Source: a virus | Strand: one strand, 5' to 3' | DNA length: 28,013 nt | Virus record (IMG/VR): IMGVR_UViG_3300017788_000130 | Location: 1-28,013 of that record | Shown here: positions 1-27,579 of the stretch, piece by piece | How positions within the stretch are numbered: position 1 is the stretch's first letter | How the letters are laid out: each line of letters starts with the position of its first letter | Translations under genes and position numbers: made by a program | Notes under the pieces: model-generated | Seen by the model: the letters and a program-made list of their open reading frames with translations, nothing else | Databases searched by the model: none | What the model was told of the DNA's origin: nothing

Positions 1-101
1 AGGATGTTCGGATTATACTAGGTCCAGTAGTAAATCTTATGAATCTTACTATTAAACGAATCAAACGTAAAAGTGTTCAGCTAGTTAGAAAAGCCAAATA
101 A
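1..101 (+). CDS. C-terminal end of an unidentified plus-strand gene (5' truncated by window)
   Basis: The frame is open from the first bases of the window to a TAA at 99-101 and reads about 32 residues, ending in the very basic stretch IKRIKRKSVQLVRKAK. The stop lies one base from the stop of the minus-strand gene at 103, a convergent packing typical of this genome, which is the main reason to believe it. There is an internal ATG at 39, but a 20-residue gene is less likely than the end of a longer one. Function cannot be told from this fragment. Confidence 0.35.
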   Translation, partial: DVRIILGPVVNLMNLTIKRIKRKSVQLVRKAK

Positions 102-102
102 T

Positions 103-681
103 TTAACTGTATCCGTAACTGATAGATTCGCAGATTAAATTCATCTGCACTACTATAGCCATAGCGTAGGCGACGGCATGGGCTTTCTTAAAATAATATT
201 CATCGTTCTCTGGTTTCTTCCATATCGTCTTCCCAATCTCTGTCCATGTCTTCCCAACGAGGTGTTTCTTGGCTGGGCGGATCAAAGCGAGACACATTGC
301 CAACTCTTCTACATTCGATGGGCCCATCTGTCTCATTAAGTAACCATGTCCATTTATGTGGAATAGTAAGTCCGTGAAATCGTCTTGTTTTAAAAGTTCC
401 CATAACGGTTCAGTCTCCATTAGTTGTTTGAGATGATCTTCATCTCTGACTTTGTTATAAATGTTGACGTTGAGGAAATCGATCTTAAAATATCCTCTTT
501 TTTCTGCTTCTTTGTAGTCTATTCCTGATAGATTATTTACTGGATCATAAGGAATATTTTGTATATATATCCCTGTATTGTGTGGAACCGTTTCATTATT
601 TTCTTTGCGAGATGCTCTAATATGTTTGATCACATTTAAGGCTAGATTCCTATCTGCGAAATCGATGTCAATATCGGGCAT
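103..681 (-). CDS. Miniature DNA polymerase III alpha (DnaE, C-family) palm-like protein
   Basis: A 192-aa protein. Residues 2-8 (PDIDIDF) match the DnaE palm motif carrying the first two catalytic aspartates. HNTGIYI (about 34-40) resembles the DnaE KHAGGVVI segment, and YFKIDFLNV (about 64-72) matches KFDFLGL with the third aspartate. The stretch around FTDLLFHINGHG and ELAMCLALIRPA matches the GVFQLES...ALxRPGP region, and FKKAHAVAYA matches FNKSHAAAYAL. The order is that of DnaE, but the PHP domain, much of the fingers, the beta-binding and OB domains are missing, and the conserved YQEQ region is not visible. The ATG sits one base after the preceding stop, so no longer N-terminus is possible. 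It is last in a run of overlapping small genes. Whether it polymerises, regulates or is only a structural relic is unknown. I believe similar short proteins occur in other marine T4-like phages but cannot verify it. Confidence 0.7.
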   Translation of the reverse strand: MPDIDIDFADRNLALNVIKHIRASRKENNETVPHNTGIYIQNIPYDPVNNLSGIDYKEAEKRGYFKIDFLNVNIYNKVRDEDHLKQLMETEPLWELLKQDDFTDLLFHINGHGYLMRQMGPSNVEELAMCLALIRPAKKHLVGKTWTEIGKTIWKKPENDEYYFKKAHAVAYAMAIVVQMNLICESISYGYS

Positions 682-682
682 T

Positions 683-865
683 TTAATGTCTTATTTCAGA
701 TTCAAAAAGCATCAAGGGTAAATGTTCAGTTAAATGATTTGCATAATTATCAGCATCTTCAAAATTATCAAAATCTGTCAATTTAACATATACTGCTGCA
801 TCATCTTCGCTAACTATTACTTCTAAATCCAACTTTGTTGCTTGGGAATTCGACGGAACGATCAT
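683..865 (-). CDS. Small conserved-type hypothetical protein (60 aa)
   Basis: A 60-aa acidic protein (pattern VSEDDAAVYVKLTDFDNFEDADNYA) with no recognised domain, signal peptide or membrane segment. Its ATG overlaps the end of the upstream gene by four bases (ATGA-type coupling), and its stop is one base before the ATG of the DnaE-like gene, so it is probably translated as part of that operon. Alternating charged and hydrophobic residues suggest a small folded alpha/beta domain. Function unknown. Confidence 0.7.
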   Translation of the reverse strand: MIVPSNSQATKLDLEVIVSEDDAAVYVKLTDFDNFEDADNYANHLTEHLPLMLFESEIRH

Positions 866-1563
866 AGATTAGCCTCCTTGACGACTTCTTTGACCAAAGC
901 TAGATCATCACGTTGTTTTTTAAACTTTTTGATCCAGATATTTGGGTCTATAACTGTACTTATCGAATCTAATTGTTCATCGTTGAGTGAAGTCAATAGC
1001 TTTTTTCCAGTCTGACAGTTTAGTAATAGCCAAGGACTAATTTTTCCATCTTTTATGTCAAACGTGGCTCTACTGGCGCTAACATAATTAAAATAATGGC
1101 TCCAGAGGCTGTTATTATCATTAGCCCATGCTTGCATGTGTGTAACAGATCGTTGTAGAGCAGTTTCCACATTTTCTGTGTGTATAAGTTCTAAAACATA
1201 TTGTTCATATAAACTATCTCTACACCAATGATCAAGTTTCACACCACTCCTTATCACCCAATCTATATACTGATCAGGATACAAAGGATTAACGTTGTTG
1301 ACATAACTACCAAATTTCACAAAAGCATTGTAATAAGGGCTGCGTGAGAACTCGTCGTGGGTTTTTTGAAATTTAGATTTTTGCGTTAGTTGATAAAATC
1401 TGTTATAGGTTTGAAACCCTATCACCACATGTTTTTCTTCTTTGGAAAGATACCGCCGTTTTTGTTCGCACATATGCACGGTCAAAGTTTTTTCCTGCAT
1501 ATAGGCATGACCACAATGCTGACAAACATAAGGTTTAACAGATTCTTTCAAATGCAATTTCAT
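862..1563 (-). CDS. Zinc-finger-containing hypothetical protein (233 aa)
   Basis: The N-terminus carries a finger-like cluster Cys14-x2-Cys17-x12-His30-x-Cys32, a C2HC variant of the classic C2H2 spacing, preceded by a basic stretch. The remaining 200 residues are rich in aromatics and contain YYNAFVKFGSYV and QYIDWVIRSGVKLDHWCRD. This overall pattern I associate with a conserved hypothetical family of marine T4-like phages. It overlaps its neighbours by four bases on both sides, so it is operonic. The finger suggests nucleic-acid or protein binding, but nothing in the sequence says which. Function unknown. Confidence 0.8.
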   Translation of the reverse strand: MKLHLKESVKPYVCQHCGHAYMQEKTLTVHMCEQKRRYLSKEEKHVVIGFQTYNRFYQLTQKSKFQKTHDEFSRSPYYNAFVKFGSYVNNVNPLYPDQYIDWVIRSGVKLDHWCRDSLYEQYVLELIHTENVETALQRSVTHMQAWANDNNSLWSHYFNYVSASRATFDIKDGKISPWLLLNCQTGKKLLTSLNDEQLDSISTVIDPNIWIKKFKKQRDDLALVKEVVKEANL

Positions 1564-2036
1564 CCTGTGATCTTATCTATTTCTTTATCAGTGTAACCGT
1601 GTTGTTCCGCCAGATACTTGATTTCTTTTTTATTTAACATAGCAGATAATAATTCTAACTCGTCTTGTTTTCTATTAGGATAAATTTCTAACAGAAACTT
1701 AACGACCTTTCCTTCTGACTTTTTCTTTTTAAATCCTATCCATTCATGGTAAAAGATTTTTTTGCTTTCGTGACTACACATACATAACAATTGCCATAAC
1801 AGCTTTGGGTGTTTCTGTAAAGTGTTCCAGTGTTTGTTAAAATACTCGTTGACAGTTAATACAAAGTGTTCTTGTATTTCTCTGCTTTGTCCTTTGACAT
1901 TACTGATATATCGATTTAATATAAAAAATTCTTGTTTGAGAGATTTTTGTTGTTCTGCAGTCATATCATCCCAGAGCTCTTTGGATCCGAGATCGATCGC
2001 TGCTAATTTCTCCTTGAGTTCAACTTTATCGCTCAT
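1560..2036 (-). CDS. Conserved phage hypothetical protein (158 aa)
   Basis: A soluble, mostly helical 158-aa protein containing NRYISNVKG, HPKLLWQLLCM, WIGFKKKK and a C-terminal ELELLSAMLNKKEIKYLAEQ segment. I recall this pattern from conserved hypothetical proteins of marine T4-like phages that sit beside the zinc-finger gene, as here. The NR-x-x-S and C-terminal helix faintly resemble the small clamp-loader subunit gp62, but gp44 and gp45 are not adjacent and I do not make that call. It overlaps both neighbours by four bases. Function unknown. Confidence 0.75.
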   Translation of the reverse strand: MSDKVELKEKLAAIDLGSKELWDDMTAEQQKSLKQEFFILNRYISNVKGQSREIQEHFVLTVNEYFNKHWNTLQKHPKLLWQLLCMCSHESKKIFYHEWIGFKKKKSEGKVVKFLLEIYPNRKQDELELLSAMLNKKEIKYLAEQHGYTDKEIDKITG

Positions 2037-3285: not shown

Positions 3286-4755
3286 TCAACCATTCCATGA
3301 TGTTTTTTCTAAAGTAAATGGATACTTGGCTTCCTTATAAAATTTCTTCCGTTGCGTTAAATGCCTTTTCGCGTATTTGCACGTGGAGGTAAGATCCCAG
3401 ATCTGGACAAAGTCCTTATCCTCTGCCTTACGGATTCCTCGACCAATAGATTGGATAACCCTAACAAAGCTCTTTCCGGGCTCCAGAAGAACCAGATTAA
3501 AAATACGAGGGATATTAATACCCACAGCGGCCACACCATAAGTCGCCACAATAATCTTGTTATCGCTAATTTTAACTTCATCATATTCTTCCTTACGGTC
3601 CTTGGTCTTGACCTCTCCCGAAATGAACACGCTGTCCGGTATTTCGTTGGTCAAGAATTTTCCGCTATCAATCCTATTTACTAGCACTAAAGTATTGCCG
3701 TTTTCACTGATATCTTTGATTAAATTGCTGATATATCGTAATCTATCTTCGTCTGTGACTAGATACTTGTATTCTTCAGCGTATCCTCGGAATTCAGGAA
3801 GATCGATTAGTTGAACTATATTTACGTGACAATTAGATAGCACACCCATTTCTTGTAACTCGTGAGCTTTGATTCCCCCGATCACTGGGCCGATGCTGGC
3901 AAAAATACTTTCATATTCGAATGGTTCTTTAGGTATAGTGCCAGTTAATCCCCAACGAATAGGAGCATTGCCTAAATTTTGTGTCAATAGATTTTTTAGG
4001 ACTTCGGCCTTGGCCATATGTACTTCATCTACTATCACACAGGTAACACCTTCTAAAAATTCTGCTAGAGATAATATTTCTTGTTCTTGATTTTTACTTT
4101 TTTTATCTAGTATATTAAGGCTCTGCCAAGTGCAGATAGTATGTGTTTTTCCTAGATCTTTTCTATCTCCATAATAGACCCCGACATCTAGCCCTACATT
4201 GATAAAATCTTCTTCTGTTTGTTCAACAAGACTTTTGTTAGGTACTATGGTTACGGTCCTTCCGAGAGGTTCACATAGATGTGCCAATGTTGCAGTGGTT
4301 ATGGTCTTTCCTGCTCCGGTAGCTACTTCCTGTAATGCCTGGGGATTTTCTAAAAATCGATTTATCGCATCGACTTGGTAGTCTCTTAAAATTATAGGTT
4401 TGCCCGATTCCGGATGTCCTGGCGGCCATACTTTATTTTGATCTGCCCAGTATGTTTCCGTTACTTTTGAAAAATTTAATTTGACGGAATTTCTAAGATC
4501 ATTGATGGTCTCGATGCTCACAGAACACGAGTTGAGTATTTCTAGAATCTTAGGAAGCTGATTAAGATAGCCATTACCCCCCATACCAAACAAGGTAACT
4601 GTACCGTCCCAACGACCTAATTTATAAGCTGGATGATATCTAGCATAGCCTACTTCATATTTAAAGTTATTAACTAATTTTCTTCTTATCTCAACAGGAA
4701 GACCTTCTAGTTTGATATTAACTTCATCTTTTATTATTAGTTTACATGATGACAT
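3286..4755 (-). CDS. uvsW: UvsW-type recombination DNA/RNA helicase
   Basis: A 489-aa superfamily 2 helicase, close to the 503 aa of T4 UvsW. Motifs run in order: an N-terminal DNA-binding-like region (1-120), Q-like DYQVDAI (125-131), Walker A ATGAGKT (145-151), DEVH box (243-246), motif III LTGTIP (270-275), and motif VI QSIGRGIRK (435-443). UvsW unwinds branched DNA and R-loops and helps shift T4 from origin- to recombination-dependent replication. Here it follows gp32, uvsX and the uvsY-like gene on the same strand. Its ATG overlaps the end of the 390-aa orphan gene by 14 bases, so the two are probably co-translated. Confidence 0.93.
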   Translation of the reverse strand: MSSCKLIIKDEVNIKLEGLPVEIRRKLVNNFKYEVGYARYHPAYKLGRWDGTVTLFGMGGNGYLNQLPKILEILNSCSVSIETINDLRNSVKLNFSKVTETYWADQNKVWPPGHPESGKPIILRDYQVDAINRFLENPQALQEVATGAGKTITTATLAHLCEPLGRTVTIVPNKSLVEQTEEDFINVGLDVGVYYGDRKDLGKTHTICTWQSLNILDKKSKNQEQEILSLAEFLEGVTCVIVDEVHMAKAEVLKNLLTQNLGNAPIRWGLTGTIPKEPFEYESIFASIGPVIGGIKAHELQEMGVLSNCHVNIVQLIDLPEFRGYAEEYKYLVTDEDRLRYISNLIKDISENGNTLVLVNRIDSGKFLTNEIPDSVFISGEVKTKDRKEEYDEVKISDNKIIVATYGVAAVGINIPRIFNLVLLEPGKSFVRVIQSIGRGIRKAEDKDFVQIWDLTSTCKYAKRHLTQRKKFYKEAKYPFTLEKTSWNG

Positions 4756-5914
4756 CTATATCTCCATTTAGAGGTTGTTTATCATTATAATAAATTAATA
4801 AATCCACATTAGAAAAATATGCTGAAGCTTTGTTATTTTTAAAATTATTTGTGAAACTAATGATAGTCTGTGGGATCCACCCTGTTTTTATCATAAATTT
4901 TGGTAATGTGTTATTAGCTATGGCGGCGATTTTTGTATTTTCTGAAAGGTTTTTATTAAAACTTAGATCAGCTATGCTCGAATTAAACTTATTACCTTCA
5001 GCTGAATTTGGATGCCTGAAATAGATTCCAACATCACCTAAAATTTTGGAATTCGACATCGAAAAAGTTAATAAATCGAGAGATTTTTTATCTTTTATTG
5101 GCTCATGTCCTTCGAAGATCATAAGTATCGGAAATCTATTTAAATTTTTAACAACATCAAAGACTTCTTCTAATGAAAATTTCTCGTTATCGATAAACAC
5201 CTTATTACGAGTTCGCTGGGCGATCTCATTTTTTAATGATTTTTCAGGGATTTTTTCATTAATTGTATACTGATAACGTATTTTTCGATCATGTAGCATA
5301 ATCAAGTTATCATGAGTTATTTCGCCGGCATCATCTTCGATGAGTTTTTTTAATTTTTCATCTTTTAGGTTAAAAATATCAAAATTATAAGGATTTTCTT
5401 TTCTAATATTTTTAATTTCTTGATGAAAATTGAGAATTTTCTCCTCTATTTCGAAATTGTAATTTTTAAATTCATTAATCAACAGATCAATATTGTTTTC
5501 CGACAATGGTACACTGTATAAACTACAAGACTTTGAACCGTATGCCAATAATTCCCCGTTTATTTTAGAATTTAATGAACTCAGCCTTTCTTTTATAGAT
5601 TTATTAAATGTAAATTCGATTTTTATTTTTATATCGACTGGATCCACATAAATTTTTCTTATTTTTTGTAAAATCCTAAAGGGTTGAGACCAAAGGTTAT
5701 CTTCTAAAATTTTTTTGAAATTTTTTTCGATTTTTTCAAAATATGTAAAATTATCATTGAGAATTTTAACCAATAATTTAGATTGATTTTCGGTTAAAAA
5801 TATATTCTGGGATATTTGTGTTGACAAACTTTGAAGAATTTGACAATCTCTTGTTGGTAATTGATCGATGTCATTTTGAAACTTTAATAAAAACTGATCT
5901 ATGGCTAATGTCAT
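4742..5914 (-). CDS. Orphan 390-aa protein between uvsY-like gene and uvsW
   Basis: No family recognised. The protein is rich in Asn, Lys, Ile and Phe and the DNA is clearly more AT-rich than its neighbours. The first 100 residues look helical. The middle holds KKLIEDDAGEITHDNLIMLH and KNEIAQRTRNKVFID, and the C-terminal third (FPILMIFEGHEP, then VGIYFRHPN, then KFMIKTGWIPQTIISF) looks alpha/beta. There are no cysteine clusters, P-loop or nuclease motif. It is embedded in the recombination operon: it starts 12 bases after the uvsY-like stop with only a weak GAAAG ribosome site, and overlaps uvsW. Position suggests a partner of recombination or replication, but that is inference only. Confidence 0.8.
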   Translation of the reverse strand: MTLAIDQFLLKFQNDIDQLPTRDCQILQSLSTQISQNIFLTENQSKLLVKILNDNFTYFEKIEKNFKKILEDNLWSQPFRILQKIRKIYVDPVDIKIKIEFTFNKSIKERLSSLNSKINGELLAYGSKSCSLYSVPLSENNIDLLINEFKNYNFEIEEKILNFHQEIKNIRKENPYNFDIFNLKDEKLKKLIEDDAGEITHDNLIMLHDRKIRYQYTINEKIPEKSLKNEIAQRTRNKVFIDNEKFSLEEVFDVVKNLNRFPILMIFEGHEPIKDKKSLDLLTFSMSNSKILGDVGIYFRHPNSAEGNKFNSSIADLSFNKNLSENTKIAAIANNTLPKFMIKTGWIPQTIISFTNNFKNNKASAYFSNVDLLIYYNDKQPLNGDIDVIM

Positions 5915-7751: not shown

Positions 7752-8726
7752 TTATTGCTTTTGACGATTGCGAATCATTGCAAGGATGTCTGCGGCATTA
7801 CTTCCGGTAGAAGAGGCTGTAGATTCTGCTTGCTTCGGTGCAGGGGCAGTTTTAACTGCTGGCTCCTCCCAAGGAGCTTCGTCATCATCTGTAGATGAAG
7901 TTGTTTTGGTTTTTGCCATAGGATCGCCTGTTTGTTGGCTCATACCAGCAGGCTTAAAATATTGTCCCCAACGATCCATATCAAATGGTTCCCCGTCGAC
8001 GCTGGCTTCGAACATTTCTTTGATAACTTTGAGTTCAACATCGCCGGGTTTCTTAGGTAGAAAATCTTTGAGGTTATAGAGACCGTGCTGTTTAAGAGCT
8101 GCCTGCTCTTCGTCGCTGAGAGGACGCTCACGACGACTCCATTTAGAAGTAGAGTAGTCAGCATATCCGCCTTTAGAAGTTTTGATTAATTTAAAATCAA
8201 CACCGTGAAGGATATCAGTAGGCAGATTGTCCATCTCGGGATCAAGTAAAGCACCGCGAATTAATTGAAAAATCTGAGGGCCGATGATAAAACGTCGGAT
8301 CGGATTTTCAGGTTTAGCGTCTTCTTTTAGACCGTCTTCTGTGACAAATCCTTGGAAGATATAACTACGCTTCTTCCAATACTTACGTCCCATATCTTCT
8401 AATTTGGGGTCTTTAAACCAACCTCGAACTTCTGAGAGGATGGGGCAAGTAGCACCGTACATTTCCATGCATGGAACTTGTACTTGGACTTGTTTAGAAT
8501 CAGCTGAGTCTTTAACTCCAGCGAACGGCAATTTGATCATCGCACGCTCTACCCAGAAAAAGGTGTTGTCGCTGTCGCCGTCGGGTAAGAAACGAACTAC
8601 TGCCTCGCTTCCTTCTTTGAGATTCCAGAATGGGTAAATTGAATTATCACCACCTGAACGTTGATTGTCGGAACCACGTAGTTCCTGCTCTTTTAGTTTT
8701 GCACGAATTTCTGCCAAAGATGCCAT
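7752..8726 (-). CDS. 32: gp32 single-stranded DNA-binding protein
   Basis: A 324-aa homologue of T4 gp32 (301 aa). The N-terminal basic helix (MASLAEIRAKLKEQELRG) serves cooperative binding in T4. The OB-fold core includes YPFWNLKEGSEAVVRFLPDG, FFWVERAMIKLPF, PCMEMYGATCPI, and the highly conserved LEDMGRKYWKKRSYIFQGFV. Only Cys86 and Cys94 appear near the zinc-ribbon position, where T4 uses one His and three Cys, so zinc binding may be altered. An acidic stretch (STDDDEAPWEEP) sits near the end, as in T4 where it contacts partners. It heads the recombination operon with its own leader and a good ribosome site (AGGAG). Confidence 0.93.
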   Translation of the reverse strand: MASLAEIRAKLKEQELRGSDNQRSGGDNSIYPFWNLKEGSEAVVRFLPDGDSDNTFFWVERAMIKLPFAGVKDSADSKQVQVQVPCMEMYGATCPILSEVRGWFKDPKLEDMGRKYWKKRSYIFQGFVTEDGLKEDAKPENPIRRFIIGPQIFQLIRGALLDPEMDNLPTDILHGVDFKLIKTSKGGYADYSTSKWSRRERPLSDEEQAALKQHGLYNLKDFLPKKPGDVELKVIKEMFEASVDGEPFDMDRWGQYFKPAGMSQQTGDPMAKTKTTSSTDDDEAPWEEPAVKTAPAPKQAESTASSTGSNAADILAMIRNRQKQ

Positions 8727-12757: not shown

Positions 12758-12875
12758 AATCTGTACTCCCGGTCTAAGTACCAAGATATTCAAGTAACAG
12801 GCCTATAGATCACACTCGGTCCGGTGTCACCACCAATCTGTACTCCCGGTCTAAGTACCAAGCCATTCAAGTAAC
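12758..12875. repeat. 41-bp direct repeat around the stop of the 671-aa gene
   Basis: Copies at 12758-12798 and 12835-12875 are 41 bases long with two adjacent mismatches, 77 bases apart. The second copy codes for the gene's SYLNGLVLRPGVQI; the first holds the stop codon but in another frame reads YLNILVLRPGVQIS and then stop. It looks like a partial tandem duplication of the gene's 3' end. Confidence 0.9.
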
Positions 12876-14805
12876 TCATGAAGAATTCTCGCATGCTCTT
12901 TTGATCAGACTTGACTCCGCGAAAGAAAACCACAAATAGCCCACTATAGTTCTCGCCTTTATAACTGAAGGTAATGGGAATATCCGCCGAGCCAGCCACA
13001 AGTCGAGAAGTCCCCCTGGGATTAAAAGATATGCCTGAATCGGAGATTGTCCCTCGCCCCTCCCATCCGCCGTAAACCCAGTCCAAGATCACGTTACCCC
13101 TCCGACTGCCAGACATAGTTTGACTTTGAATAGTTTTCTTATCGACTCCCCAATCTGGAGACAGATTCAACGGCTCTGCACCAATCGAGTCTGCAGAATG
13201 ACTACTGCCTGGACGAAAAGTCATCCAAGCAGTAAAAAAAAGCGAGCCTGTCCTCTTGTTCTCAAAAGATTCTAGAAGCTTCATATGGTCTACCCCCTCT
13301 ACGGCCATCGTCTGGGCCGCCCTCGCTTTCCCGCCAGCCCCCCAACCCGAAGGAGCAGAGGCTCCCTTCGATAAAATTGGTACGTCCACATTTGGTCGGT
13401 CCGGATCCATAGTTGAGGAAGGTTCCTCAGAAGGTTTCTCCCCTGACTGAGCAACAACAGGAGCCGAAGCTGACCCTGGTGCTGCCGCTGCTGGTTGTGT
13501 TTGAGGTACTGCTGATCGTGATGCAGGACTTGCGGCCCGGCCGCCCGCTTTAGGAGTACCATCTTGATTATGTGTCTTGCCATACTTTGCAAGCCACTCA
13601 TCTCTTTGCGCCATAGTACCAGTTCTTCGATTAGGATCTGGCATTGCAGGAACTTCTTCATCTGCTGGACTTGCACCTTGACCAGCAGATGAAGCAGTAC
13701 TTTGTCCAGGAAGATTTAAGCTGGCACCGGCAGCGATCTTATTTCGATCAGTGATCTGTGGGTTAGCCTTCATTATGGCATCGACTGTTGTATCATTAGC
13801 TTTGGCGATCTTTGTCAGTGTGTCGCCTTTTTGTATGGTATATTCCTCCATAAACTCATCTATGGCATCTCTGGTCTTGGGGCCTATGATGCCATCTACT
13901 TGAAGACCAGCGTTATACTCTTTATTGAGATACATTTGTAGTTTTTTATTTCTCTCTCTCTCATTTGAGTCGGATTTATCTGAAGAAAACTTGTCTTTTA
14001 ACCAGTTGGCTCCTGATGCTAGGCCGGCACCGCCTGCGGCTGCACCTATAAGTTTACCTATACTTTCGCCAACAGGTTTACCAACAATACGACCAGTAAC
14101 AGGTTTTGTGCCGACTTTACGATGTCTAGGATAATCTGTGGCTTTTTCTTCTCTAATTCTAGAATTATTGCGATTTAATTTTTGCGGTTTGTCATTGACC
14201 TTTTTTTTTATTTGATTATATTGTTCTTGAAGTTTTTTCTTTAAACTTTCTACAGCCATAGGATTGCCACCGCCTGCCACCGCCGGTTTTTCGATGCCTT
14301 TGCTATGTAGGTCTCCACCCGTGCGTGTTACTGCATCAACACCCTGATATATCTCGTCCGGGGCGTTATCAAAGTCGTCATCTAAACCCATCGGGGGAGA
14401 CATTTTTTTGACTATAACGTCTGCATCAGCATCTCCGAAACCAGGCATTTCATGTTTTTCGCCTTCGAAGTTGCGCAGTAAATCCATCAAATCTCTGATA
14501 CCACCTTTGCCGCTGGCATTCAAGCTGACATTGGCATTGATGCTATCGGGTTGTGGAGGAGTTCCGCTTCTCATGCCCATCATACCGCCAGGCATGTCTG
14601 ACATTCCTGGGGGAGGTAGTCCGCAGGCTTCTTCAAAAGATCCATCTTCCTTGACTTTGTAAGTTTTACCGTCGACTTCAAAATTATCTTCCCCAGCATC
14701 ACGGGCAGCATCAAGGGCTCCACTAAAGGCGTTACCTTCATTTGGTTCTTCGATCACTGGTTTATCTAGTTCGGCCATCCGTTGCATTAATTCTTGAAAG
14801 TTCAT
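12790..14805 (-). CDS. LysM and peptidoglycan-binding domain virion protein (671 aa)
   Basis: Domains in order: a tag-like N-terminus MNFQELMQRMAEL; an EGNAF...NFEVDGKTYKVKED module (23-60) shared with the 742-aa protein; a Gly/Met/Pro-rich and acidic linker; a glycine-rich hydrophobic stretch (249-265); a PG_binding_1-like repeat around GLQVDGIIGPKTRDAIDEF (300-318); a LysM domain starting YTIQKGDTLTKIAKAND (322-366); an Ala/Ser/Pro-rich linker to about 495; and a C-terminal domain of about 170 residues with no family I know. No lytic catalytic motif is visible, so it probably binds rather than cuts cell wall. The DNA for the linker and C-terminal domain is clearly richer in GC than the N-terminal half. 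Good ribosome site (GAGGAA). A role in injection or head-tail assembly is inference. Confidence 0.8.
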   Translation of the reverse strand: MNFQELMQRMAELDKPVIEEPNEGNAFSGALDAARDAGEDNFEVDGKTYKVKEDGSFEEACGLPPPGMSDMPGGMMGMRSGTPPQPDSINANVSLNASGKGGIRDLMDLLRNFEGEKHEMPGFGDADADVIVKKMSPPMGLDDDFDNAPDEIYQGVDAVTRTGGDLHSKGIEKPAVAGGGNPMAVESLKKKLQEQYNQIKKKVNDKPQKLNRNNSRIREEKATDYPRHRKVGTKPVTGRIVGKPVGESIGKLIGAAAGGAGLASGANWLKDKFSSDKSDSNERERNKKLQMYLNKEYNAGLQVDGIIGPKTRDAIDEFMEEYTIQKGDTLTKIAKANDTTVDAIMKANPQITDRNKIAAGASLNLPGQSTASSAGQGASPADEEVPAMPDPNRRTGTMAQRDEWLAKYGKTHNQDGTPKAGGRAASPASRSAVPQTQPAAAAPGSASAPVVAQSGEKPSEEPSSTMDPDRPNVDVPILSKGASAPSGWGAGGKARAAQTMAVEGVDHMKLLESFENKRTGSLFFTAWMTFRPGSSHSADSIGAEPLNLSPDWGVDKKTIQSQTMSGSRRGNVILDWVYGGWEGRGTISDSGISFNPRGTSRLVAGSADIPITFSYKGENYSGLFVVFFRGVKSDQKSMREFFMSYLNGLVLRPGVQIGGDTGPSVIYRPVT

Positions 14806-21793: not shown

Positions 21794-22132
21794 ATGAACA
21801 GACCGTTATGTATTTGTGGATTTAGGCCCGCAGCCATCAACTATGTCAAGAACGGCAAGATCTATTATCGAAAAAAGTGCGAAATCTGCCTCAACGGCGG
21901 TCTAAACAAAGGAATACCAAGATGGTATCAAGATGGGTATCGTATGAAAAATTTATGCGATGTCTGTGGCTTTAAGAGCAGATATAAAGAACAGTTTAAT
22001 GTCTATCATTTAGACGGAAATTTAAATAACAGTCGTTTAAATAATTTAAAAACCGTCTGTGCTAATTGTCAGCGTGTGTTATCTAAAGACGGATTTAAAT
22101 GGCAACAGGGCGGTCTTCAACCAGATTTTTAA
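21794..22132 (+). CDS. HNH-type zinc-knuckle endonuclease-like protein (112 aa)
   Basis: A first zinc knuckle uses C6-x-C8 and C29-x2-C32. The second half has C55-x2-C58, then YHLDGNLNNSRLNNLKTVCA with His72, Asp74 and the closing C89-x2-C92, the layout of HNH nucleases held by two CxxC pairs. Whether it is a homing enzyme or a phage recombination/packaging nuclease is not clear; no intron or insertion site is visible. It is alone on the plus strand between gp18 and the dNMP kinase, and its last 38 bases overlap the end of the kinase gene on the other strand. The start is apparently leaderless. Confidence 0.75.
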   Translation: MNRPLCICGFRPAAINYVKNGKIYYRKKCEICLNGGLNKGIPRWYQDGYRMKNLCDVCGFKSRYKEQFNVYHLDGNLNNSRLNNLKTVCANCQRVLSKDGFKWQQGGLQPDF

Positions 22133-25482: not shown

Positions 25483-27149
25483 TGCAATATTTTTATGATG
25501 GCCAAATACGTAGATATCTAGTTCAAATAATTAGATTATTAAGTAATTTTGTAGTTAAGTATGCCGATGGAACTTTGGTAAGAATTCCTGTAGTTTATGG
25601 TGATGCCGACAGACAAGTGGCTGCGATACTTAACCAAAACAGCGAAAACTCTGTGCAGGCTTCTCCTAAGATAGCTGTCTACATCACTGATATAGAATTA
25701 GATACCAGTAGATTAGCAGATGCTAGTTTTGTTGGAAAATTGCATATCAGAGAGCGTGCTGTAGATGAAAGCACAGGAGAATATCTCAATACCCAGGGAG
25801 AAAATTATACCGTCGAACGATTAATGCCTACTCCTTATAAACTAACTTTCAAAGTAGACATATGGAGCAGCAGTAACGAACAGAAATTACAGATATTAGA
25901 ACAGATATTGGTATTGTTTAATCCCAGCCTAGAAATACAAACCACAGATAATTACATAGATTGGACGAGCCTCAGTGTAGTCGATCTTAACACCGTGACC
26001 TATAGCAGTAGATCTGTTCCTGTGGGGTCGGCCACAGAAATAGATATCGCTACATTAGCATTGTCCACACCTATCTACATCAGTCCCCCAGCTAAGGTCA
26101 AGAGATTAGGTGTGGTCACTAGCATAATAGCTAATATATTTGGAGGTGATGGTGATCCTTATGGAAACTATATCGACGGATTAGGTACAGATCCCGGCGC
26201 CGGCCTTAGAGAACCGTCTAATCCATTGTTCGGTCAATTCGTCACTATCGGAAATTATGACATAGAAGTATTAAATGGCACTGTACGATTGATCAGCAGT
26301 GAAGGTATAGATCTAGCATGGACCATGCTTATAGATCAAAATCCTGACATATATAAAGCCAGCTTGACTAGATTGTATCTCAGACAACCTAACGGATCTA
26401 ATGTCGTAGGTTACATAGCACTAAATTCCCTAGATGAAACTATCATGGTGGCCAGCTGGGATGAAGACACTTATCCATCAAACACCATCATTGATAGCCG
26501 TGGTAGGATCGAAAGCATCGATCCTGACTATGACAATGATACAGGTCGAGGCACGTTTGATGGAATCATAGATCCGCACAGGACTGGTCCTGGATCGGGA
26601 TTACCTGCTGTAACTGTCGCTGGAACTAGATATTTGATATTAGAAGATATAGGAGGAGGAGTCAGAGATTCCTTCATTGCAGAACGTCCCTTACAAAGAA
26701 TTAACACTAATGTGTTGCATCGAAAAGTAGACGGTCATCGAGTTTTTGTAAACGGTGTTGAAGTAGGCAGCGGAAATTTAAGAATACCAAATAACGTCGA
26801 TACTGGAAATTATTATATATTGTTGGATGATCCCGTACCTGCAGGAACAGAGATTACATACGAGATATATCAAAACGAAACTCCAGAGTTAGGCAGCGAT
26901 TGGGGAGGCGCTGATGCTTGGAAAAACTCCGACGGAACAGATTTAATAGCAGCCGCTAATGATATCATAGAATGGTCAGACGACAAATGGTCGGTGATAT
27001 TCAGCGCCAAAGAGCACACAGACATTCTGATATATCAAACTAATGTATTCCCAGGCCGACCGGATGTGCAGTATAAATGGAACGGGGTGGCTTGGGTCAA
27101 GAGTTTTGAAGGCATATATCGCAGAGGGGAGTGGCGACTTGAGCTCTAA
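25482..27149 (+). CDS. 15: Tail completion/sheath stabiliser gp15, C-terminally extended
   Basis: A 555-aa protein, twice the length of T4 gp15 (272 aa). The gp15 pattern is clear in residues 1-215: YFYDGQIRRYLVQIIRLLSN, then VRIPVVYGDADRQVAAILN, and YTVERLMPTPYKLTFKVDIW with EQKLQILEQILVLFNPSLEI. gp15 hexamers cap the tail and join it to the neck. The extra 340 residues include GDGDPYGNYIDGLGTDPG, a region around AWKNSDGTDLIAAANDIIEW, and the closing VQYKWNGVAWVKS, which resembles W-motifs of gp18 and gp14. It is coupled to gp14 by a one-base overlap. Confidence 0.82.
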   Translation: MQYFYDGQIRRYLVQIIRLLSNFVVKYADGTLVRIPVVYGDADRQVAAILNQNSENSVQASPKIAVYITDIELDTSRLADASFVGKLHIRERAVDESTGEYLNTQGENYTVERLMPTPYKLTFKVDIWSSSNEQKLQILEQILVLFNPSLEIQTTDNYIDWTSLSVVDLNTVTYSSRSVPVGSATEIDIATLALSTPIYISPPAKVKRLGVVTSIIANIFGGDGDPYGNYIDGLGTDPGAGLREPSNPLFGQFVTIGNYDIEVLNGTVRLISSEGIDLAWTMLIDQNPDIYKASLTRLYLRQPNGSNVVGYIALNSLDETIMVASWDEDTYPSNTIIDSRGRIESIDPDYDNDTGRGTFDGIIDPHRTGPGSGLPAVTVAGTRYLILEDIGGGVRDSFIAERPLQRINTNVLHRKVDGHRVFVNGVEVGSGNLRIPNNVDTGNYYILLDDPVPAGTEITYEIYQNETPELGSDWGGADAWKNSDGTDLIAAANDIIEWSDDKWSVIFSAKEHTDILIYQTNVFPGRPDVQYKWNGVAWVKSFEGIYRRGEWRLEL

Positions 27150-27579
27150 TGATCGCATAGTCTGTAGCGGTGCGCTGTTCTATGCTAAATCTACTAAAAG
27201 ATTTTTATTATTACAAAAAGCCAACGGTAAACATCAAGGTACTTGGAGCCTAGTAGGAGGAACTAATCTAGGCGAAGAAACTCCTTGGCAGGGACTACAA
27301 AGAGAAATAGAAGAAGAAATTGGATTCGTACCTAAAATTTTAAAGGCTATGCCTTTGGAAACATTTGTCAGCAATGACAGTGTTTTCCATTTTCACACTT
27401 ATCTTTGCGTAATAGACAACGAATTCATACCCGATCTCAGCGATGAACACATGGGCTACGCATGGACTACCGCAGAGAATGCACCTAAGCCCCTACATCA
27501 AGGCCTCCGCAACAGTTTCTCAAACAGAACTATAAGATCTAAATTACAAACAGTATTTGATGTGATCGATTTGATCTGA
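27139..27579 (+). CDS. Nudix hydrolase with TTG start
   Basis: A 146-aa Nudix protein with a full box: GGTNLGEE, seven residues, then REIEEEIGF, matching Gx5Ex7REUxEExGU. The acceptable start is TTG at 27139: GGGGAG lies seven bases upstream and no ATG exists in frame nearby. An ATG at 27043 would require 107 bases of overlap with gp15. It overlaps the gp15 end by 11 bases, so it is the last gene of the gp14-gp15 operon. Nudix enzymes hydrolyse nucleoside diphosphates linked to other groups; the substrate (damaged dNTP, NAD, ADP-ribose, RNA cap) cannot be told. Its stop abuts the convergent fibre gene with no gap. Confidence 0.8.
   Translation: MSSNDRIVCSGALFYAKSTKRFLLLQKANGKHQGTWSLVGGTNLGEETPWQGLQREIEEEIGFVPKILKAMPLETFVSNDSVFHFHTYLCVIDNEFIPDLSDEHMGYAWTTAENAPKPLHQGLRNSFSNRTIRSKLQTVFDVIDLI

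Follow-up and report, generated by a model that had tools for sequence, protein, structure and literature searches.

The virus-derived stretch analysed here, called the window below (positions 1 to 28,013 of IMG/VR record IMGVR_UViG_3300017788_000130; 28,013 nucleotides), encodes a 192-aa protein that is very probably one half, the C-terminal one, of a minimal C-family nucleotidyltransferase core that is specific to phages, comes in two pieces and is assembled in trans. The protein is another member of a system that has already been described. A split minimal Pol III alpha was recognised from sequence in the "group 2.2" jumbo phages, in which distant loci encode an N-terminal protein that binds NTP and a C-terminal protein that binds metal and template, alongside a B-family polymerase (Iyer et al., 2021, Viruses 13:63; PMC7824862). 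A stripped C-family core, which a preliminary description of this DNA had held to be unexpected in such a phage, thus has a precedent in the literature. The split Pol III alpha was proposed by the same authors to be a model of ancestral Pol III (Iyer et al., 2021). Genome papers had also noted a 172-aa truncated Pol III alpha in phage CBB, which corresponds to the N-terminal half (PMC5259590), and gp316 in phage Atu_ph07 (PMC6102473). We found no experimental study of a split phage Pol III alpha in the literature searched.

We refer to the two proteins as the N-half and the C-half. Compared with the group 2.2 system, we saw no difference in kind: the families are the same (PHROG 11127 for the N-half and PHROG 11778 for the C-half), as are, in relatives of the window, the split itself and the coexistence with a B-family polymerase, and Atu_ph07, which was named by Iyer et al. 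(2021), carries both halves in our analysis too. The window contributes a further member from an uncultured contig, with the C-half alone in the fragment. What is new here is the location of the split to within five residues, conservation tables of 118 and 42 sequences, a quantified co-occurrence of the two genes, independent fold matches for each half, and the observation that the pair is not constantly accompanied by a DnaQ-type exonuclease.

The C-half gene occupies positions 103..681 on the minus strand, a strand that the preliminary description did not give; the plus strand over the same interval is closed and full of stop codons. Its product belongs to PHROG 11778 ("DNA polymerase"; E=2.5e-71, residues 3-186). 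When the single sequence was used as query, the matches in Pfam, NCBIfam and the PDB were to Pol III alpha and were weak, with DNA polymerase III alpha as the top match by sequence in both NCBIfam and the PDB. A profile built from 118 homologues matched DnaE of Mycobacterium tuberculosis (E=1.8e-4) in four motif blocks, all in the same order. Relatives covering at least 80% of the length were found by tblastn in 63 phage records, and the named phages examined are all jumbo phages (RaK2, 121Q, PBECO4, PA5oct, Atu_ph07, Phosso, SCTP-2, and others). Relatives are also encoded in at least 554 IMG/VR stretches. The nearest of these share 60-77% identity with the C-half of the window and form with it a clade known mostly from IMG/VR. 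In most records, the split-polymerase genes are annotated as 'hypothetical protein' or plain 'DNA polymerase'.

All of the DnaE motifs quoted in the preliminary description are present, and in the DnaE order. MPDIDIDF (residues 1-8; 658..681, minus strand) contains the catalytic aspartates D3 and D5 together with D7, and KIDFL (residues 66-70; 472..486, minus strand) supplies the third catalytic aspartate, D68, as well as K66, and aligns to KMDFL of M. tuberculosis DnaE. ALIRP (residues 132-136; 274..288, minus strand) is a fingers motif with R135 and P136, aligned to the end of ALFRPG at approximately 636-641 of Escherichia coli DnaE. FKKAHAVAYA (residues 164-173; 163..192, minus strand) is a second fingers motif, the equivalent of FNKSHSAAYA, and aligns to E. 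coli residues 752-767. The first residue of the C-half aligns with M399 of E. coli DnaE, M461 of Thermus thermophilus and M413 of M. tuberculosis. Because M1 falls on E. coli M399, D3 and D5 are the catalytic D401 and D403, and D68 corresponds to D555. Eight residues (D3, D5, D7, K66, D68, R135, P136 and H168) are identical in every one of the 118 aligned homologues, and F164, K165 and K166 are kept in 117. A survey of the three aspartates in homologues, as the preliminary description had proposed, therefore finds each of them invariant. Judged from these alignments, the motif order is that of a genuine C-family (DnaE/Pol III alpha) protein and not a product of chance.

What is absent from the C-half is equally clear from the DnaE alignment. 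The PHP domain, the greater part of the fingers and the C-terminal domains are missing, as the preliminary description stated, and so are the thumb and the N-terminal half of the palm that bears the GRGS motif (upstream of residue 399 in DnaE). The thumb region is reduced from approximately 140 residues in DnaE to approximately 35, predicted to form two beta-strands, and the stretch of fingers between the ALxRP and KSH motifs from approximately 110 residues to approximately 23. The 192-aa protein is therefore not a full-length DnaE, in which palm, thumb, fingers and PHP are carried on one chain. Nor is it a stand-alone palm, since the GRGS half is missing. Of the earlier label "miniature palm", the stripped C-family character holds; the protein is only the C-terminal half of the palm, and the GRGS half is encoded elsewhere in the genomes of relatives.

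When the Pfam palm family DNA_pol3_alpha was used to look for this second half in four complete relatives, one further gene came up in each genome, coding for 169-177 aa. The gene belongs to PHROG 11127 (approximately 170 aa), and its product ends in the sequence ...GVGRGSSVASYVLFLIGIHKVNSIKYDLDFxEFL. The GxGRGS motif is identical in all 42 homologues. The end of the N-half aligns at residue 455 of T. thermophilus DnaE and 407 of M. tuberculosis DnaE and the C-half starts at 461 and 413, respectively, so that five DnaE residues lie between the two at the split point. The two genes are 31-224 kb apart in the six genomes measured, and the N-half gene lies near that for a gp44-type clamp loader. 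No intein sequence was seen in either half. The halves are not duplicates of each other, as their profiles have no similarity. Being a fragment of 28 kb, the window contains neither a match to the N-half nor a B-family polymerase.

Structure prediction agrees with the sequence comparisons. The AlphaFold2 model of the C-half has a mean pLDDT of 92 and a pTM of 0.82, and its best 14 matches in the PDB (Foldseek) are all Pol III alpha, followed by unrelated noise; the best E-value is 3.2e-4 and the TM-scores, normalised to the query, are 0.40-0.53. A comparison of this kind had been put forward in the preliminary description as a check on the polymerase assignment, which it upholds. For the N-half, the model has a pLDDT of 91 and the first 16 PDB matches are all C-family polymerases, with weak E-values and poor superposition (rmsd 10-20 A).

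The two halves are almost always found together. When two tblastn lists were compared and three records checked directly, 59 of the 60 phage records listed as having a C-half proved to carry the N-half as well; the sole exception is a 109-kb unverified record. Amongst IMG/VR contigs longer than 200 kb, four of the five that have a C-half carry the N-half too; conversely, a C-half is present in eight of nine large contigs in which an N-half was found. The exceptions are a 280-kb contig (G004) with a C-half and no detectable N-half and a 349-kb contig (G015) with an N-half and no C-half, both of which may be incomplete. A B-family polymerase was found in all 21 records tested, in keeping with the earlier suggestion of a T4-like phage that has such an enzyme. 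In RaK2 and Cassandra, its YGDTDS motif and the exonuclease motif DIET are intact. The gene is gp43-like and the catalytic fold of its product is unrelated to that of the C family; these phages have the split Pol III in addition to the T4-type polymerase.

Other parts of DnaE do not accompany the pair. PHP was absent in 15 of 15 relatives tested and no separate fingers domain was found in the relatives searched, and we therefore rejected the idea that the remaining DnaE domains are supplied as extra separate pieces. An RNase_T/DnaQ exonuclease was detected in six of eight named phages and in none of nine IMG/VR contigs above the curated cut-off, which led us to discard the idea of a regular pairing with a DnaQ-like proofreading exonuclease. 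Such genes are located at 50330-50791 (W02), 8164-8679 (W09) and 109954-110460 (W03) of named jumbo phages, and in RaK2 and 121Q the DnaQ-like gene shares a block with the C-half.

The C-half lies in a conserved block of replication and recombination genes. In the window, the order is UvsX, UvsY, UvsW, PHROG 11279, PHROG 11758, PHROG 11058, C-half and a convergent gene, the same as in named jumbo phages, where the C-half sits between uvsW and the genes for primase and gp41. The UvsW-like helicase (3286..4755, minus strand; ResIII, Helicase_C and weak UvsW_N matches; PHROG 16, DNA helicase) serves as a marker of this block. Upstream of the C-half, a 233-aa protein with a zinc-finger-like N-terminus (862..1563, minus strand; PHROG 11058) is part of the block; its gene neighbours the C-half in 87 loci, those of all eight named jumbo phages examined among them, and the protein is a possible partner for the split polymerase. 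The PHROG 11758 gene (1560..2036, minus strand; 158 aa) always adjoins that of PHROG 11058 and is found beside the C-half in 84 loci, the eight named phages included. Its product looks by eye like T4 gp62, the small subunit of the clamp loader, but neither searches of the PDB, Pfam and PHROG nor an hhalign comparison with a gp62 alignment bore this out. The convergent gene is cut by the window edge, leaving its end at 3..101 on the plus strand (open frame DVRIILGPVVNL...RKAK and a stop codon), in the position of the opposite-strand gene that follows the C-half in all named phages examined.

A 60-aa reading frame directly upstream of the C-half (683-865, minus strand) has relatives in 48 IMG/VR loci and in no named phage examined. 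The 390-aa protein adjoining uvsW (4742-5914, minus strand) has relatives in 61 loci, all in the clade of the window itself, and no Pfam or PHROG match. Farther along the window, reading by eye picked out a short plus-strand frame with a CxxC/H pattern resembling an HNH endonuclease (21794-22132), surrounded by minus-strand genes; a 671-aa protein with peptidoglycan-binding-like and LysM-like segments (12790-14805, minus strand); and a plus-strand frame with a Nudix-box-like sequence (GGTNLGEETPWQGLQREIEEEIGF; 27043-27579) that overlaps the end of the preceding long reading frame.

Compared with bacterial DnaE and PolC, the phage proteins are alike in motif order, in all catalytic residues and in predicted fold. 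They differ from DnaE in being two polypeptides of approximately 170 and 190 aa instead of one of approximately 1,100 aa, in lacking PHP, thumb, most fingers, beta-binding and OB domains, and in a palm that is cut five residues before the catalytic strand. The intein-split DnaE of cyanobacteria is also a C-family polymerase encoded in two pieces. Unlike that enzyme, the phage halves show no intein sequence, are broken in the palm and not in the fingers, and have no remainder of DnaE after them.

A mechanism consistent with these features can be proposed. The N-half and C-half would associate non-covalently and so complete one pol-beta-type palm, in which the GRGS helix of the N-half would hold the triphosphate, while D3, D5 and D68 of the C-half would hold two metal ions and the C-half would also contribute the ALxRP and KxH residues of its reduced fingers. 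The pair could then add nucleotides to a DNA primer over a short range; a short-range nucleotidyltransferase is what would be expected because there is no thumb, PHP, clamp-binding or OB domain. How template and primer would be gripped is uncertain, given the loss of the thumb region and of the greater part of the fingers. The role would most likely be in repair or gap-filling, or as a lagging-strand helper, beside the T4-like B-family polymerase. A bolder version, which we put forward only tentatively, is that the two halves (approximately 360 aa in total) are the smallest known working C-family DNA polymerase, a dedicated repair or lagging-strand enzyme beside the B-family replicase, such that polymerases of bacterial and eukaryote type would share one fork.

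The same architecture could also belong to a C-family-like nucleotidyltransferase with a task other than copying DNA, for example adding a nucleotide to a protein, an RNA or a DNA end, or sensing nucleotides to regulate the replisome. The loss of the thumb and most fingers, the want of a fused clamp-binding or OB domain, and a B-family replicase already in place would all suit such a protein. We nevertheless regard it as unlikely, as the ALxRP and KxH finger residues are retained along with the metal site, and the C-half lies amongst UvsW, primase and helicase genes. A catalytically dead relic, or a decoy contacting the host or phage replisome, would fit the small size and the lack of a known activity, yet is very improbable: none of the catalytic residues varies among 118 C-halves and 42 N-halves from diverse phages, each half is kept alongside the other, and preserved active-site residues in two separate genes are not what one would expect of a decoy. 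The decoy and regulator roles raised in the preliminary description have no specific support, and the invariant residues speak against a non-catalytic function. That the C-half is a minimal polymerase by itself, as was also suggested there on the strength of its three catalytic aspartates and as its confident single-chain fold prediction might allow, is scarcely credible and was rejected as the main reading, since essentially all relatives encode the GRGS half of the palm in a gene of its own.

An association of the two halves into one catalytic core is thus the reading that we favour. Activity of the pair would establish how small the catalytic core of the bacterial replicative polymerase family can be, and would demonstrate that two proteins can restore a palm severed immediately ahead of its catalytic strand. 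The families are widespread, and many of the phages that carry them are isolates kept in laboratories (RaK2, 121Q and PA5oct-like phages). An active pair would also mean that one phage replisome contains polymerases of two unrelated folds, and would provide a test of the ancestral Pol III proposal of Iyer and colleagues (Iyer et al., 2021).
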